The notes beneath the pieces were generated by a model that did not search any database, was not told the origin of the DNA, and saw only the letters and a list, made by a program, of their open reading frames with translations. A stretch of 50,578 nt of DNA from Actinomycetota bacterium (GTDB lineage Bacteria; Actinomycetota; Acidimicrobiia; IMCC26256; VFJJ01), in NCBI GenBank assembly GCA_009886115.1, contig VFJJ01000081.1, forward strand, positions 1 to 50,578, in the 5' to 3' direction. Shown here piece after piece: positions 13,590 through 22,649 of this stretch (position 1 is the stretch's first letter; each line of letters opens with the position of its first letter). The translations under genes were made by a program, and so were the position numbers.

Positions 13590-13687
13590 CAGCAAAGCGC
13601 CGACGATCGCCCATGGGCGGGTCGAAGGGGCCCGTCCCGCTGCCGAGTCGCATTCGTTCACTGCCTCACCTACACGAAGGGATCTCC

Positions 13688-14707
13688 ATGGGCCGCAACG
13701 TTCCCGGCGATTTCGCCACCCGCTGGACCCCGCCCGCCTACACCGTCGACGATGACGGCAAGGTCGTCGGCGGCTACACCCCGCCCGGATTGAACAACTG
13801 GGGACGCTGGGGCGCCAACGACCAGCGCGGCACCCAGAATCTCGTGGGCCCAGCGCAGATCGCGCGCGCCGCAGGGCTCGTTCGTGACGGCAAGGTGTTC
13901 TCGATGGCCCTCACGATCGACGCCGACGCCCCGCGCTTTCCCACCCGCCCCGCGCCGCAGCACTACTTCCTCTCGACCGGGGCCGACGCCGTCGCCGGAT
14001 CGCCCGTGCAGATCGCCATGCCGGGATACCAGTGGAACGACGACATGATCACCATGGCGCTCCAGGGCTCGACCCAGTGGGACGGCTTCGGGCACTTCAT
14101 GGCCCACGACACGATGTACAACGGTTACTGGGCTGGAAACGTCACCGCGGCGGGTGGGGCGGCCGTGCTCGGGATGGAGCACATGTACGAGAGCTTCATC
14201 GGGCGCGGTGTGCTGCTCGACCTGGCTCGGCTGCGCGGGGTCGAATGGCTCCCTGAGGCGTCCGAGGTGAACGCGGCGATGCTCGACGAGTGCCTGGCCG
14301 CCCAGGGCGTCGCCTTGGAGACGGGCGACATCGTCCTGCTGCGGACGGGCTTCCTCCAGAAGTGGGAGCGCTTGCAGACCTTCGACGAGCGGGTCGCCTA
14401 TTTCGGTGACACTCCCGGCCTCATCGAGGATTGCGTGGAATGGCTCTACCGAAACGACGTGTCGGCCCTGGCTGCTGACACGGTGGGCATCGAGGTCCTG
14501 GCCCCGACCACACCGCAGAGTCGGGTGCTGCCCATCCACCACGGCTGCCTCGTCGATCTCGGCCTTCCTCTCGGCGAGTTCTGGGACCTCGAGGCGCTCG
14601 CGGCCGACTGCGCCGACGACGGACGCTACGAGTTCATGCTGGTGGCGCCGCCGCTGCGCGTACCCCATGCGGTGGGCTCGCCCCTCAACCCCATTGCCAT
14701 GAAGTGA
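13688..14707 (+). CDS. cyclase family protein (PF04199-type, kynurenine-formamidase fold)
   Basis: A 339-residue metal-hydrolase-fold protein. The family motif HxGTHxDxPxH appears here as QGSTQWDGFGH: the two early histidines are Gln while the Asp and last His remain. I believe this variant is common in the larger actinobacterial cyclase subfamily; it implies altered metal binding. LETGDIVLLRTGFLQKW, then ADTVGIEVL and HHGCLVDLGLPLGE, are further family blocks. Members hydrolyse amides, lactones or ring carbonyls. The ATG at 13688 follows GAAGGGATCTCC; longer starts are unlikely. It is the first gene of an operon of at least eight genes behind TetR site 2. Confidence 0.82.
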   Translation: MGRNVPGDFATRWTPPAYTVDDDGKVVGGYTPPGLNNWGRWGANDQRGTQNLVGPAQIARAAGLVRDGKVFSMALTIDADAPRFPTRPAPQHYFLSTGADAVAGSPVQIAMPGYQWNDDMITMALQGSTQWDGFGHFMAHDTMYNGYWAGNVTAAGGAAVLGMEHMYESFIGRGVLLDLARLRGVEWLPEASEVNAAMLDECLAAQGVALETGDIVLLRTGFLQKWERLQTFDERVAYFGDTPGLIEDCVEWLYRNDVSALAADTVGIEVLAPTTPQSRVLPIHHGCLVDLGLPLGEFWDLEALAADCADDGRYEFMLVAPPLRVPHAVGSPLNPIAMK

Positions 14708-14720
14708 CGAGGGTCCCCAG

Positions 14721-16340
14721 GTGACGACACCGGCTCCGTGGACCTTGGGTCCTGACGAGCCGCGTGTGATCGGCGACTGGATCCGGCACAAGGCGCTGCG
14801 CAATCGAGAGAAGGTGGCGCTCGACATCGTTGGCCGCGAGAAGACCTATGTCGGTGTCGACCGCGACAGCGACCGGGTCGCCGCGGGCCTGTCCGCCCTC
14901 GGGCTGGGTCTGGGCGACAACGCGTCGCTGATGATGAAGAACAGCCTCGAGAACGTCGACGCCTGGTTCGCCATGGCCAAGGCCGGCATCGTGGAGGTTC
15001 CGATCAACCATGCCAATCGGGGATATCTCCTCGAGTACCTGATCGGACACTCGCACTCGAGGGCGATCGTGATCGACGAGGAGTACCTCGACCGCATCGC
15101 CGAGGTCGCTCCGAACCTCACCGGGCTCGAGCACGTCATCGTGCACCGCGAGGGTCTCGGCTTGGGAACCCCGTCGCTTCCCGGGCACGTCACCGTGCAC
15201 GAGCTGAACGACCTGTATCTCGACGTTCCGCCTCCTGCTCCGGCGCTCGACCGGCTGTCCCGGTCGGTCATTCTCTACACCTCGGGCACGACCGGGCCGT
15301 CGAAAGGGGTGTGCCTCTCACACGAGGCGAACCTCAACTTGACCCGTCACACGCGGTGGCTCGTGGGCTACGACGCCGACGACGTGCTCTACACGGCCTT
15401 CCCGCTGTTCCATGTGAACGCCAAGTACACCAGCGTGATGTGCGCCATGGAGGCCGACGCCAAGCTGGTGATGGACCAGAGGTTCTCGGCCAGCCACTTC
15501 TGGACGATGTGTCGCGACAAGGGCATCACCGCGTTCAACTACCAGGGCGGGCTGCTGATGATGCTCTGGAAGCAGCCCGAGCGCGACGACGACGCCGAGC
15601 ACTCGGTGCGGCACGGGTTCGGGGCTCCGTGCCCCGTCGAGATATGGGAGCCGTTCGAGGACCGGTTCGGCGTGGAACTGGTCGAGGTGTACGGGATGAC
15701 CGAGGTGGCCGTCGCCACCGAGAACCCCGTCCAATCTCGGCGCATCGGCTCCGCCGGACGCGAATCCGACAACTATCACGTCACGATCGTCGACGAGAAC
15801 GACCTGCCCGTTCCGCCGGGTACGGCCGGCGAGATCGTCGTGCGTCCGAAGAAGCCGGGCATCATGATCGGTGAATACTTCGACATGCCCGACGCCACCG
15901 TGCACGCCTTCAGGAACCTGTGGTTCCACACGGGTGATCGGGGGCGCTTCGACGACGACGGGTACCTGTACTTCATCGACCGGATGAAAGACTGCGTGCG
16001 ACGTCGGGGCGAGAACATCTCGTCGTTCGAGGTCGAGGCGGTCATCAACACGCACGATGCCGTGCTGGAGTCGGCCGTGTTCGGCGTCCCGTCGGAGCTC
16101 GGCGAGGAAGAGGTCATGACCGCGCTCGTTCGCAAGCCCGGGCATACGCTCGACGAGGTCGCCCTGCTCGACCATTGCACTGGGCACATGGCCCACTTCG
16201 CCGTGCCGAGGTACGTGAGGTGGATGGACGATTTGCCCAAGACCCCGTCGCAGCGGGTCGAGAAGTACAAGCTCCGGGCCGAGGGTGTCACCGTCGACAC
16301 CTGGGACCGCGATGCCAACGGGTACAAGGTGAAGCGATGA
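14721..16340 (+). CDS. ATP-dependent acyl-CoA ligase (AMP-binding, CaiC-like)
   Basis: A 539-residue adenylate-forming enzyme. Motifs in order: YTSGTTGPSKGV (P-loop), FPLFHVNAK, VYGMTEVA, WFHTGDRGRFDDDGYLYF, then DRMKDCVRRRGENIS, and a C-terminal PKTPSQRVEKYKLR where a Lys should complete adenylation. It makes an acyl-CoA from a carboxylic acid, ATP and CoA; the overall pattern is closest to crotonobetaine/carnitine-CoA ligase-like enzymes, but the acid is unknown. GTG start at 14721, 13 bases after the cyclase stop, with GAGGG upstream. Its stop overlaps the next ATG (ATGA). Confidence 0.9.
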   Translation: MTTPAPWTLGPDEPRVIGDWIRHKALRNREKVALDIVGREKTYVGVDRDSDRVAAGLSALGLGLGDNASLMMKNSLENVDAWFAMAKAGIVEVPINHANRGYLLEYLIGHSHSRAIVIDEEYLDRIAEVAPNLTGLEHVIVHREGLGLGTPSLPGHVTVHELNDLYLDVPPPAPALDRLSRSVILYTSGTTGPSKGVCLSHEANLNLTRHTRWLVGYDADDVLYTAFPLFHVNAKYTSVMCAMEADAKLVMDQRFSASHFWTMCRDKGITAFNYQGGLLMMLWKQPERDDDAEHSVRHGFGAPCPVEIWEPFEDRFGVELVEVYGMTEVAVATENPVQSRRIGSAGRESDNYHVTIVDENDLPVPPGTAGEIVVRPKKPGIMIGEYFDMPDATVHAFRNLWFHTGDRGRFDDDGYLYFIDRMKDCVRRRGENISSFEVEAVINTHDAVLESAVFGVPSELGEEEVMTALVRKPGHTLDEVALLDHCTGHMAHFAVPRYVRWMDDLPKTPSQRVEKYKLRAEGVTVDTWDRDANGYKVKR

Positions 16341-17563
16341 CCGGCATCGCCGAGCACGAGCGCAGGTCGGGAGCCAGGTCAGCGGCCGCACCAGCTGATG
16401 TGATCGTCCTCGAGGAGTCCGACCTGCAGGAGCGGTTCCACGCCGAGGGCTGGAGCGACGGCTTGCCCGTCGTGGCCCCGACGCCCGACCGGGTCGACGC
16501 CATGTTGGCCGCGGCTCGTCTCGACCCCGATCTGGTGGTGGGGATCGTTCCCCAGCGCGACCGGGTCGTCACCGCGGAGAAGGTCGCCGTCAACGCGGTC
16601 ATGGCCGGATGCCGGCCGGAGTACTTCCCATTGGTCGTCACGGCGATGGGGGCCATCCTCCAGCCCGCGTTCAACGCCCACACGGTGATCACGTCCACGG
16701 GTGGGGCAGCCCTGTGCCTCGTCGTCAGCGGTACCGAGGCCGACCGGCTCGGGATGAACGCCGCGCACAACGTGCTGGGCTCCGGCAACCGGGCCAATGC
16801 CACCATCGGTCGAGCCGTCAGGCTCGTCGCCCGGAACGTCCTCGGGGCGAGCTCCCCCGGGCTCGATGGATCGAGCTTCGGCCATCCCGGCAAGTACTCG
16901 TTGTGCATCGCCGAGGCGCCACCGCCGGCGGGTTGGGAGCCGCTTAGGGTCGAGCTCGGCTTCAGTGCCGACGACAGCACGGTCACGGTCGCGCCCACCG
17001 AAGGGCCGTGGCAGATTGCCAACCACCTGTCGCCTGCGGCACGCGACATCCTCCTCACCTTCGCCGCCGCGATCAGGTGCCCGGTCACGTTCTCGGTGGG
17101 CAAGGGCGGCCACGAGGTCGTGGTGCTGTTCGGGCCCGAGCATGCGCAGGCTGTTGCCGCCGAAGGCTGGACCCGTTCGGATGTGTGCGAGTTCCTCGTC
17201 GCGCACACGCGGGTCACGCCCGAGGAGTTGGCTGCGGCCGGCGTGCACCTGGAGGTGGGAGCCCAGCACGACATGACCCCAGACGCCGATGGGCGACTGG
17301 CGACCCTGGCGTCGCCGGCTTCGGTGTACGTCGTCACCTGTGGCGGCGCCGGGGCGGGGTGGTCGGCCTACCTGCCAACATGGGCGCCCAGCATCCACGC
17401 CCGGGCCGTGACGCTGCGGATCCCGAGACCGCACGAGCGCTGGCCGTGCACCGATGTCCACGGCCGTACGATCGACTGGTTGGTGTTCGCGCCGCCCTCA
17501 GCTCCCCAACCCCCGCGCCGCCTGCAGCACGTGCATGACCCAACGCGCGCCGCTTTCGCGTGA
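16337..17563 (+). CDS. conserved protein adjacent to UGSC selenoprotein, function unknown
   Basis: A 408-residue protein with no recognised catalytic domain. Notable blocks are GWSDGLPVVAPTPDRVDAML, then EKVAVNAVMAGCRPEYFPLV, LGSGNRANATIGRAVRLV and FGHPGKYSLC. From memory, proteins with this pattern recur beside UGSC-motif (seleno)proteins, so the pair may be one functional unit. There is no signal peptide or membrane segment. The ATG at 16337 overlaps the ligase stop; an upstream frame to 16175 only shadows the ligase. The C-terminus (after about residue 385) is Pro/Arg-rich and poorly conserved-looking. A redox role is inferred only from its partner. Confidence 0.65.
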   Translation: MTGIAEHERRSGARSAAAPADVIVLEESDLQERFHAEGWSDGLPVVAPTPDRVDAMLAAARLDPDLVVGIVPQRDRVVTAEKVAVNAVMAGCRPEYFPLVVTAMGAILQPAFNAHTVITSTGGAALCLVVSGTEADRLGMNAAHNVLGSGNRANATIGRAVRLVARNVLGASSPGLDGSSFGHPGKYSLCIAEAPPPAGWEPLRVELGFSADDSTVTVAPTEGPWQIANHLSPAARDILLTFAAAIRCPVTFSVGKGGHEVVVLFGPEHAQAVAAEGWTRSDVCEFLVAHTRVTPEELAAAGVHLEVGAQHDMTPDADGRLATLASPASVYVVTCGGAGAGWSAYLPTWAPSIHARAVTLRIPRPHERWPCTDVHGRTIDWLVFAPPSAPQPPRRLQHVHDPTRAAFA

Positions 17564-17595
17564 GGCGCCAGCACCGACAGATCGAGGAGCAGACC

Positions 17596-18183
17596 ATGGC
17601 CCAGATCACCGTTCACCGTCCCGACGTGGCCGACGACCGTCCGCAGGCGTCGTCGCTCGCCCGCCGGGTCTCGCTGCCAGCCGGAGCGGTCCTCACGCTC
17701 ATCGAGAACGGCAAGCCCAATGCTCGGGCGCTCATGGTGAAGGTGGCTGAAGGGCTGCGGTCTCGGCTGGGAATCGCGCGTGTAGACATCCATTCCAAGC
17801 CCAGCGCCGCCTCGGCCATCGGCCCTGACGAGGCCAAGGCGATCGCCGCGCGCTCTCATCTCGTCATCACCGGCGTCGGCGATTGAGGCGCCTGCACAGC
17901 GTGCAGTTTGCACGACGCCGTGATGATCGAGTCCCTCGGCACGCCAGCGACGCTGGTGATCACCGAGCCCTTTGCCCCCTTGGCTGCGAGCTTCTCGCGT
18001 ACCCTGGGCCTGGCGGAGGCGTACCACGTCGCTGCCGTCGCCCACCCTGTCTCCACGAAGGACGACGCCGAGCTCGGCGCCCTCGCGGCGACGATCGTCG
18101 ATCTCGTGGCGGCCCAGCTGACCATCGATCCGACCGATCCGACCGACCCGACCAACGACTCGACACGGGGAGCAGAGCAGTGA
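17596..18183 (+). CDS. UGSC-type selenoprotein with in-frame UGA (Sec97)
   Basis: A 195-residue product if the TGA at 17884-17886 is read as selenocysteine. The frame before it (MAQITVHRP ... HLVITGVGD) continues without shift into U-G-A-C-T-A-C-S-L-H-D-A-V-M-I-E, then another 80 codons to a TGA at 18181. The U-G-A-C-x-x-C cluster matches the redox motif of the family called UGSC (seleno)proteins, where Sec or Cys occupies this place. A hairpin starting directly after the UGA has bacterial-SECIS geometry. The ATG at 17596 has GAGGAG 7 bases upstream, and the true stop overlaps the next GTG. An automatic caller would split it into a 97-codon piece and a short orphan. The C-terminus holds a D-P-T repeat. 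Function is unknown, presumably thiol/selenol redox. Confidence 0.82.
17887..17919 (+). promoter_or_regulatory. SECIS-like hairpin directly after the UGA
   Basis: Outer stem GGCG (17887-17890) with CGCC (17916-17919); inner perfect 6-bp stem CGTGCA (17900-17905) with TGCACG (17909-17914); apical loop GTT. The loop begins 19 nt after the UGA with G as its first base, within the usual limits for a bacterial SECIS (loop 16-37 nt downstream, G among the first two loop bases). An alternative stem CTGCA/TGCAG competes. Confidence 0.6.
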
Positions 18184-18740
18184 CCGACGACCTCGAAGCA
18201 CGGATCCGCCGGCTGGAGGACCGCGCCGAGATCAGCCTCCTCGTGGCCGAGTACGGCGTCGCCGTCGACGACCGCGACATGGCGACGCTGGGCGATCTCT
18301 TCACCGACGACGCGGTGTTCAGGCACGCCGACGGGTTCGCCGAGATGCGCGGCCGCGACACCGTCATCGACTTCTACCAGAACCGCTTTCGGCTGTTCGG
18401 GCCGAGCTTTCACTATCCGCACAGCCATGCGATCTGGTTTCCCGAGACGACCGGAGCCGGCGATGCGACGACCGCCACAGGACGGGTCACCGCCCATGCG
18501 GAGCTGGGGACCGAGGGAAAGACCGTCATGGTGGCCTTGCGCTACCACGATCGCTATGTGTGCCAAGGACGCTGGCGTTTCGCAGAGCGGGTGTTGTCGT
18601 TCCTGTACTTCATGGATCTGGCCGAGCTGGCCGCTGGCGGGCTGACGGCCCCGATGCGCAAGATCTGGCCTGGTCCGACGATGGCCACCGACCTGCCCGA
18701 GACGCTGCCGACCTGGCGCTCGTACTACGGGCTGGCGTGA
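18180..18740 (+). CDS. SnoaL/NTF2-like domain protein
   Basis: A 186-residue cone-fold protein. It starts VTDDLEARIRRLEDRAEISLLVAEYGVAVDDRD, then LGDLFTDDAVFRH and GRDTVIDFYQNRF, the standard SnoaL-like (SnoaL_4) opening; WRFAERVLSFLYFMDL closes the sheet. Such domains bind hydrophobic ligands as isomerases, dehydratases or non-catalytic pockets and recur in steroid and terpenoid catabolic islands. Its GTG overlaps the selenoprotein stop (GTGA), so reading through the UGA would be needed to couple translation of this gene. One of three NTF2-like proteins in the window. Confidence 0.82.
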   Translation: MTDDLEARIRRLEDRAEISLLVAEYGVAVDDRDMATLGDLFTDDAVFRHADGFAEMRGRDTVIDFYQNRFRLFGPSFHYPHSHAIWFPETTGAGDATTATGRVTAHAELGTEGKTVMVALRYHDRYVCQGRWRFAERVLSFLYFMDLAELAAGGLTAPMRKIWPGPTMATDLPETLPTWRSYYGLA

Positions 18741-18766
18741 GCAACGCCACCGACGAGGAGATCACG

Positions 18767-19474
18767 ATGAGCACCACCATCACTGAGCGGGTCGACGAGC
18801 TGCCTCCGGCCGAGCAGGCGATCGTCACCGAGATCGCGACGGCCTGCCGCATCTTGGCGGCCCACGGCTGCAGCCCCGGGATCGGTGGCCACGTGAGCGT
18901 GCGCGCTCCGGGGCAGGACGCCTTCTTCATCAACTCGTTCCACCTCACGTTCGACGAGATCACCCCGGCCGACGTGATGAAGCTCGGGTTCGACGGCAGC
19001 GCGCGTCACGGTCGCCACCGGGTGAGCCCGGGATGGGAGTTCCACGCCGGGATCTACCAGCAGCGCCGCGACGTCGACGCCGTCGTGCACACGCACGCCT
19101 TCTGGGTGACCGCGTTGTCGTCGCTCAACCGCCCGCTCAAGATGCGGCACAACCTGTGCACGTTCTTCTTCGAGAAGATGGCGGTGAGCCCCGACGACAC
19201 CTTCGAGCAGATCGGCCCGGCGCTGGCCGACGCCAACTCGATCCTCATCCCGTTCCACGGCGCGGTCACCGTCGACCGCTCGCTGGGCAGGGCCGCCGCG
19301 CTCATGCTGAACCTCGAGGACATGGCCCGCCTCGACGTGACCCTCGAGGCGACCCAGGCCCCACCCATGCCTGACGAACGCTGCCCCGCGCTCCGGACTC
19401 TCGTCGACGAGGTGGCCGGTTATCTGGAGCTGACCTGGGAGCTCCACCGCCGCAAGGTGATGCTCCCGTGGTGA
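18767..19474 (+). CDS. class II aldolase/adducin family protein
   Basis: A 235-residue class II aldolase-type protein. Features: HGCSPGIGGHVSVRAPG (N-terminal block), VVHTHAFWVTALSSL (paired zinc His), and LIPFHGAVTVDRSLGRAAALMLNLEDMAR (third zinc His). Relatives cleave sugar phosphates, but many in actinobacterial catabolic clusters act on unknown hydroxy-keto compounds by retro-aldol cleavage or decarboxylation. ATG at 18767 with GAGGAG upstream is preferred; a GTG at 18737 overlapping the preceding stop is in frame and would add 10 residues. The stop overlaps the following P450 start. Confidence 0.85.
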   Translation: MSTTITERVDELPPAEQAIVTEIATACRILAAHGCSPGIGGHVSVRAPGQDAFFINSFHLTFDEITPADVMKLGFDGSARHGRHRVSPGWEFHAGIYQQRRDVDAVVHTHAFWVTALSSLNRPLKMRHNLCTFFFEKMAVSPDDTFEQIGPALADANSILIPFHGAVTVDRSLGRAAALMLNLEDMARLDVTLEATQAPPMPDERCPALRTLVDEVAGYLELTWELHRRKVMLPW

Positions 19475-22612: not shown

Positions 22613-22649
22613 TGGTGGAGTGGTGGAGTGGTGGAGTGGTGGAGTGGTG
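22613..22649. repeat. 8-bp tandem repeat (TGGTGGAG x4 plus partial)
   Basis: Four exact copies of TGGTGGAG followed by a fifth degenerate copy, in the 350-bp non-coding region between the SDR and TetR genes. Such short arrays can change length by slippage; here that would alter the spacing of upstream elements, not a protein. The rest of 22498-22847 contains only TetR site 3. Confidence 0.85.

Follow-up and report, generated by a model that had tools for sequence, protein, structure and literature searches.

Within the window, by which we mean the whole stretch of 50,578 nucleotides that was analysed, the forward strand carries in this order a putative cyclase gene (13613-14707; PF04199, 6e-22), an acyl-CoA ligase gene of the AMP-binding type (14721-16340; PF00501, 1.1e-60), a gene for a 408 aa partner protein with a GWSDGLP core (16337-17563), a gene predicted to encode a UGSC-family selenoprotein (17596-18183), and genes for a SnoaL-like protein (18180-18740; PF13577, 1e-25), a class II aldolase/adducin-like protein (18737-19474; PF00596, 2.9e-36) and a cytochrome P450 (19468-20727; PF00067, 1.2e-31). 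The cyclase and ligase genes belong to the same operon as the partner and UGSC genes. The partner gene overlaps the preceding ligase gene in an ATGA, the SnoaL-like gene shares a GTGA (18180-18183) with the UGSC stop, the aldolase-like gene, which starts at GTG 18737 or at ATG 18767, begins in a further GTGA overlap, and the P450 gene overlaps the aldolase stop. Elsewhere in the window, a stretch without obvious gene holds a perfect 8-bp tandem repeat, TGGTGGAG, in 4.6 copies (22613-22649).

The interrupted frame and its family

According to the original prediction, an in-frame TGA interrupts the frame 17596-18183 and hides a selenoprotein of the UGSC type. We found that the gene starts at ATG 17596, with GAGGAG upstream at 17583-17588, and that the TGA at 17884-17886 is followed by 98 more open codons and the stop TGA at 18181-18183, in good agreement with the roughly 100 codons and the GTGA overlap with the next gene that had been described. 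The read-through product of 195 aa, with a predicted Sec97, matches Pfam PF24696 over nearly the whole model (residues 6-176 on positions 2-171 of 172; 2.6e-39, 135.6 bits for a cut-off of 25), so that the proposed family identity is borne out far above the cut-off. The block directly after the TGA is also as described, reading U97-G-A-C-T-A-C-S-L-H-D and containing U97xxC100xxC103.

The UGSC family was described in 2008, when a likely thioredoxin-like fold was suggested for it; with 255 proteins in the GOS set, it is among the commonest selenoproteins of aquatic metagenomes (PMC2398784). The literal UGSC tetrapeptide is absent from the window copy, which reads UGAC, as does one other copy in the same genome, C193. 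Across the family alignment (A2) the Sec/Cys column is invariant and the Ser of the motif only nearly so, which means that the Ser position is not defining for PF24696. UGAC differs from the family motif by a single residue, the window copy being a divergent paralogue and a new member of a family already known. Its score against NCBIfam NF041046 (109.6 bits) falls under the curated equivalog cut-off of 125 bits, so that it would be missed if named automatically by that model. Furthermore, since standard gene callers take TGA as a stop, every UGSC copy would be split or truncated by them.

Selenocysteine codon, machinery and hairpin

Of the 1226 TGA triplets of the window, 17% have at least 98 open codons after them, and a hairpin of the kind described below follows 5 of the 1226 in the same register. 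Each feature alone is within chance, and the case therefore rests on homology and comparative evidence.

The genome holds selA, selB, selC and selD, the genes that the original prediction had set as a check: the tRNA-Sec (66 bits; ARAGORN anticodon tca) lies on the same contig as selA and selB, and selD is also present. A PF24696 search located eight UGSC loci in the genome, each with exactly one TGA and always at the same motif position. Cysteine at residue 97 in homologues, which had been named as confirmation of Sec, was found in four genes (L037, L038, L043 and L051) that are 54-58% identical to the sister copy C1. In a first set of order-level relatives, 4 of 29 loci have Cys at the aligned codon and the others TGA, and a second set contains 20 TGA, 19 TGC and 3 TGT and nothing else; two Cys genes are common to both sets, so most of the 22 Cys sites are further genes. 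All homologues checked thus have TGA, TGC or TGT at this codon. In a tree of 118 proteins, well-supported branches force at least five changes between Sec and Cys. A scan of public genomes with the single motif GSCT[SA][WC]S[VL]H, from which the best 80 loci were kept, gave 79 TGA and 1 Cys at the motif site in Actinomycetota, Chloroflexota, Pseudomonadota, Acidobacteriota, Myxococcota and others, a ratio that, being biased by the motif and limited to the best 80, gives no estimate of frequency. Two Cys-form genes of different subfamilies, L171 and L175, lie at most about 3 kb apart in opposite orientation.

The eight copies of this genome are spread over different parts of the tree, which indicates that they are not recent duplicates. 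The window copy sits on an end branch of 2.06 and is placed with the C1-type clade. No close orthologue of it was found in the 57 other genomes of the order, where the best matches are about 38% identical and belong to other subfamilies in the tree. UGSC is listed with the numbers 26 and 33 in a survey covering over 5200 bacteria (PMC5029168); we read these as 33 genes in 26 organisms, and if so, eight in one genome would be unusual.

Next to the codon, the original prediction had noted a hairpin with a G in its apical loop 19 nt downstream of the UGA, and had proposed a comparison with bSECIS models. This hairpin (17900-17914, +17 to +31 from the UGA) has six base pairs and the loop GUU, with the loop G at 17906 and 19 nt separating the UGA from the loop (CGTGCA-GTT-TGCACG). 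It fits the published model, in which a stem of 4-16 bp lies 16-37 nt after the UGA and a G occupies one of the first two loop positions (PMC13188914), in loop, spacing and stem. An Rfam scan of the region matched no family. The minimum free energy is -6.3 kcal/mol over 15 nt and -7.6 over 21 nt, for a criterion of at most -7.5. In isolated window RNA (folds of 47-57 nt) a competing hairpin forms at 17892-17906, and the conserved hairpin has a pairing probability of about 0.15-0.19 in 57 nt; omitting the first 12 nt makes it the best fold, and we assume that the ribosome removes these nucleotides from pairing.

Comparison across the UGSC family indicates that the hairpin is conserved and covarying. 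All six pairs are formed in 102 of 110 distinct TGA genes, versus 1 of 25 Cys homologues. A Trp/Cys codon (TGG/TGC) covaries with a synonymous Val codon (GTC/GTG; 13:3 versus 0:50, p = 2.7e-11, a value that, like all these statistics, overstates independence because the sequences are related). Furthermore, where the loop encodes Ser, the codon is AGT in 98 of 106 TGA genes versus 1 of 10 Cys genes, and AGT makes up 2.7% of the Ser codons across 16 genes of the window. Such a pattern at synonymous sites is hard to explain except by conserved RNA pairing.

Alternatively, translation could truly end at the TGA, or the TGA could stem from a sequencing error or mark a pseudogene, with 17596-17886 encoding a short protein. 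For this speaks the stop codon itself and nothing more, while a TGA stands at the same site in the eight paralogues and in about 110 distinct homologous genes, with Cys codons elsewhere, protein conservation continues downstream of it, the full sel machinery is present and the hairpin is kept only in TGA genes; we consider this reading highly improbable. Judged from these sequence comparisons, insertion of selenocysteine at TGA 17884 and membership of the UGSC family appear almost certain.

The partner protein and the thioredoxin domain of many relatives

The 408 aa protein encoded immediately 5′ of the UGSC gene matched no family in Pfam or NCBIfam. Its conserved residues include C91 and C189 (numbered on window positions 16340-17560) as well as R158 and E192. 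The UGSC model and a profile of the partner were run independently against 61 genomes and gave 97 usable matches each. We found that 93 of the 97 UGSC genes have a same-strand partner gene within 219 nt (median 27), with the partner first in 51 pairs and UGSC first in 42, and that the copy numbers of the two are near-equal across the genomes. All eight UGSC copies of the present genome have a partner, and in C193 (L030:8649-10358, G000:C193) the two are fused, with UGSC N-terminal and the partner second, in one frame that runs through the TGA. Four UGSC genes lack an adjacent partner (G004:C59, G013:C191, G024:C69 and G050:C350) and four partners lack UGSC (G041:C93, G047:C48, G050:C161 and G051:C294), several of these eight orphans being at contig ends. 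The 2008 paper reported UGSC fused to an undescribed domain, 'Unknown_1' (PMC2398784), which may be the partner protein. From this distribution, UGSC and its partner very probably form an obligate functional pair.

An additional N-terminal domain with CPTC and VPTL motifs is present in at least 54 of the 147 partner ORFs, that of the sister copy C179 among them. Searched against the PDB, a profile built from 19 such domains picks up thioredoxins with a best E of 2.7e-5, and these account for nearly all of the 60 matches listed. The window partner itself (16337-17563) is without this N-terminal domain. At one locus, L082:5086-5673, the N-terminal domain scores best as AhpC/TSA (3.1e-7) rather than as thioredoxin, which may reflect a swap of the redox domain fused to the partner.

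Sequence searches of the PDB with the UGSC profile and with the partner profile gave no significant relative. A class I fumarase came up as a candidate relative of the partner in Foldseek (E 1.3e-5), with a TM-score of about 0.2 and a Z of about 5, and this kinship is unproven.

Fold, proposed mechanism and known systems

The AlphaFold2 model of the UGSC protein (pLDDT 92, pTM 0.84) is a five-stranded flavodoxin-like alpha/beta sandwich with Sec97 just ahead of the helix 98-113. The structural matches listed for it are flavodoxin-like or Rossmann-like, and no thioredoxin is among the top matches listed, so that the thioredoxin-like fold put forward in 2008 finds no support in the model. Starting from a likeness of motifs, we made one directed comparison by hhalign, in which UGSC was set against GRDB-type selenoproteins of the same phylum, each translated past its own TGA. 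The two align Sec on Sec (E 8.7e-7, probability 91%) over about 85-88 columns at 14-20% identity. The score is 50.9, compared with no more than 18.9 for any of 30 column shuffles and 22.2 for the reversed control. This is no proof; a distant homology of the Sec-bearing domain shared by UGSC and GRDB is probable. By hmmscan, no match to PF07355 was found up to E 5, no similarity was seen between the partner and GRDB profiles, and our search found no solved GrdB structure for a comparison of folds.

The UGSC copies examined, C179 excluded, lie in differing metabolic surroundings. Next to copies other than that of the window there are amidohydrolases, luciferase-like monooxygenases, FAD oxidoreductases, alcohol and short-chain dehydrogenases and an acyl-CoA dehydrogenase.

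We infer that the likeliest function of UGSC and its partner is that of a substrate-specific selenoreductase fed by thioredoxin. The two would form one enzyme that acts as D-proline reductase does, or as protein B, the substrate-specific component of glycine reductase. The partner would hold the substrate, and the Sec97 selenolate, at the N-terminus of a helix in the flavodoxin-like fold, would attack a polarised carbon and cleave a bond (C-N, C-S, C-O or C-halogen) adjacent to a carbonyl or a CoA thioester. The resulting selenoether or selenenyl-sulfide would be resolved by Cys100, with re-reduction by a thioredoxin that is fused to the partner in many relatives and would be a free one here. 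The eight copies would then be eight substrate-specific versions placed in different catabolic clusters. We give this explanation as a whole a probability of about 0.6. Of its parts, thioredoxin as the electron donor of UGSC is rather likely, and reductive bond cleavage of the GrdB/PrdB type is a tentative analogy. In the glycine and proline reductases, C-N cleavage involves an unusual rupture of a carbon-selenium bond, glycine reductase being coupled to thioredoxin (PMC10298544). Of the eight GrdB genes with Sec in a Synergistota strain, several have been assigned to different substrates and one has been proposed for C-F cleavage (PMC10838667). The presence of eight UGSC copies, each with the same partner, points to a set of reductases that depend on selenium and are related to those for glycine and proline.

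Two other functions have to be weighed. UGSC could be a general thiol, disulfide or peroxide oxidoreductase with an antioxidant or housekeeping role, as its UxxC motif, the fold suggested in the 2008 description (PMC2398784) and the fusion of a thioredoxin domain to the partner of many genomes would have it; the confident flavodoxin-like model and the lack of thioredoxins among the top structural matches listed argue against this, and eight diverged copies in varied catabolic operons, each with its obligate partner, are more what one would expect of substrate-specific enzymes than of a single redox protein for housekeeping, which makes this role unlikely. Alternatively, the partner, which is larger and strongly conserved at C91, C189, R158 and E192, could be the catalytic enzyme, with UGSC keeping its cysteines or a metal cluster reduced. 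The best Foldseek match of the partner, class I fumarase, would suit such a role, but the low TM-score and Z of that match weaken it, and the strong divergence of the eight UGSC copies in the tree is what would be expected if UGSC itself contacts the different substrates. This assignment of roles seems less probable still.

Taken together, the selenoreductase reading raises the possibility, which we hold tentatively, that UGSC, its partner and thioredoxin represent an unrecognised class of two-component selenoreductases, bringing GrdB-like selenium chemistry into aerobic catabolism with up to eight substrate-specific copies in a genome that cut C-X bonds of acyl-CoA or other carbonyl substrates. 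The near-obligate partner, its N-terminal thioredoxin domain in many genomes, the predicted flavodoxin-like fold of UGSC and the alignment with GrdB go beyond the literature searched. The fixed partner and the thioredoxin fused to it in many relatives, taken with the operon settings and a probable kinship to GrdB/PrdB, make the substrate and mechanism of UGSC, a question since 2008, testable, and we regard the three-component module and its probable link to GrdB/PrdB as more valuable than the selenoprotein call.

Compared with known systems, the window copy shares with the UGSC family (PF24696/NF041046) a full-length match, the Sec site, the downstream hairpin and the length of 195 aa, and differs in its UGAC motif, its divergence as a paralogue and its score below the NF041046 cut-off. 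Another close system is that of the short GRDB-like selenoproteins of the same phylum, one of which, L198, is encoded in the same genome (G000:C178:38239-38457, minus strand) with an in-frame TGA and UPLC, as in nearly all of its relatives L199-L217. Like UGSC they are stand-alone proteins with an in-frame TGA and a probably homologous Sec domain; unlike UGSC they have UPLC in place of UG(S/A)C and form a separate subfamily nearer to GRDB (E 2e-23). In L213 and L215 the frame ends two codons (PI) past the Sec-like TGA, unlike in their relatives, possibly through a frameshift, a truncated form or a misplaced match.

The GrdB and PrdB that have been characterised come from anaerobes, whereas the present genome, with its P450 and luciferase-like monooxygenases, looks aerobic, and this probable difference between the hosts counts against a GrdB-like reading. 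UGSC furthermore matches only the C-terminal Sec part of GrdB/PrdB, and at its locus the unrelated GWSDGLP partner, itself without any Pfam match, stands in place of the pyruvoyl subunit GrdE/PrdA, of which none was seen there. GrdB is described with UxxCxxC (PMC13188914). What UGSC shares with GrdB/PrdB (PF07355 superfamily) is the alignment of Sec on Sec, the U-G-x-x-T and LExxGIPT blocks and this UxxCxxC arrangement, together with paralogous sets in one genome and, for glycine reductase, thioredoxin as electron donor.
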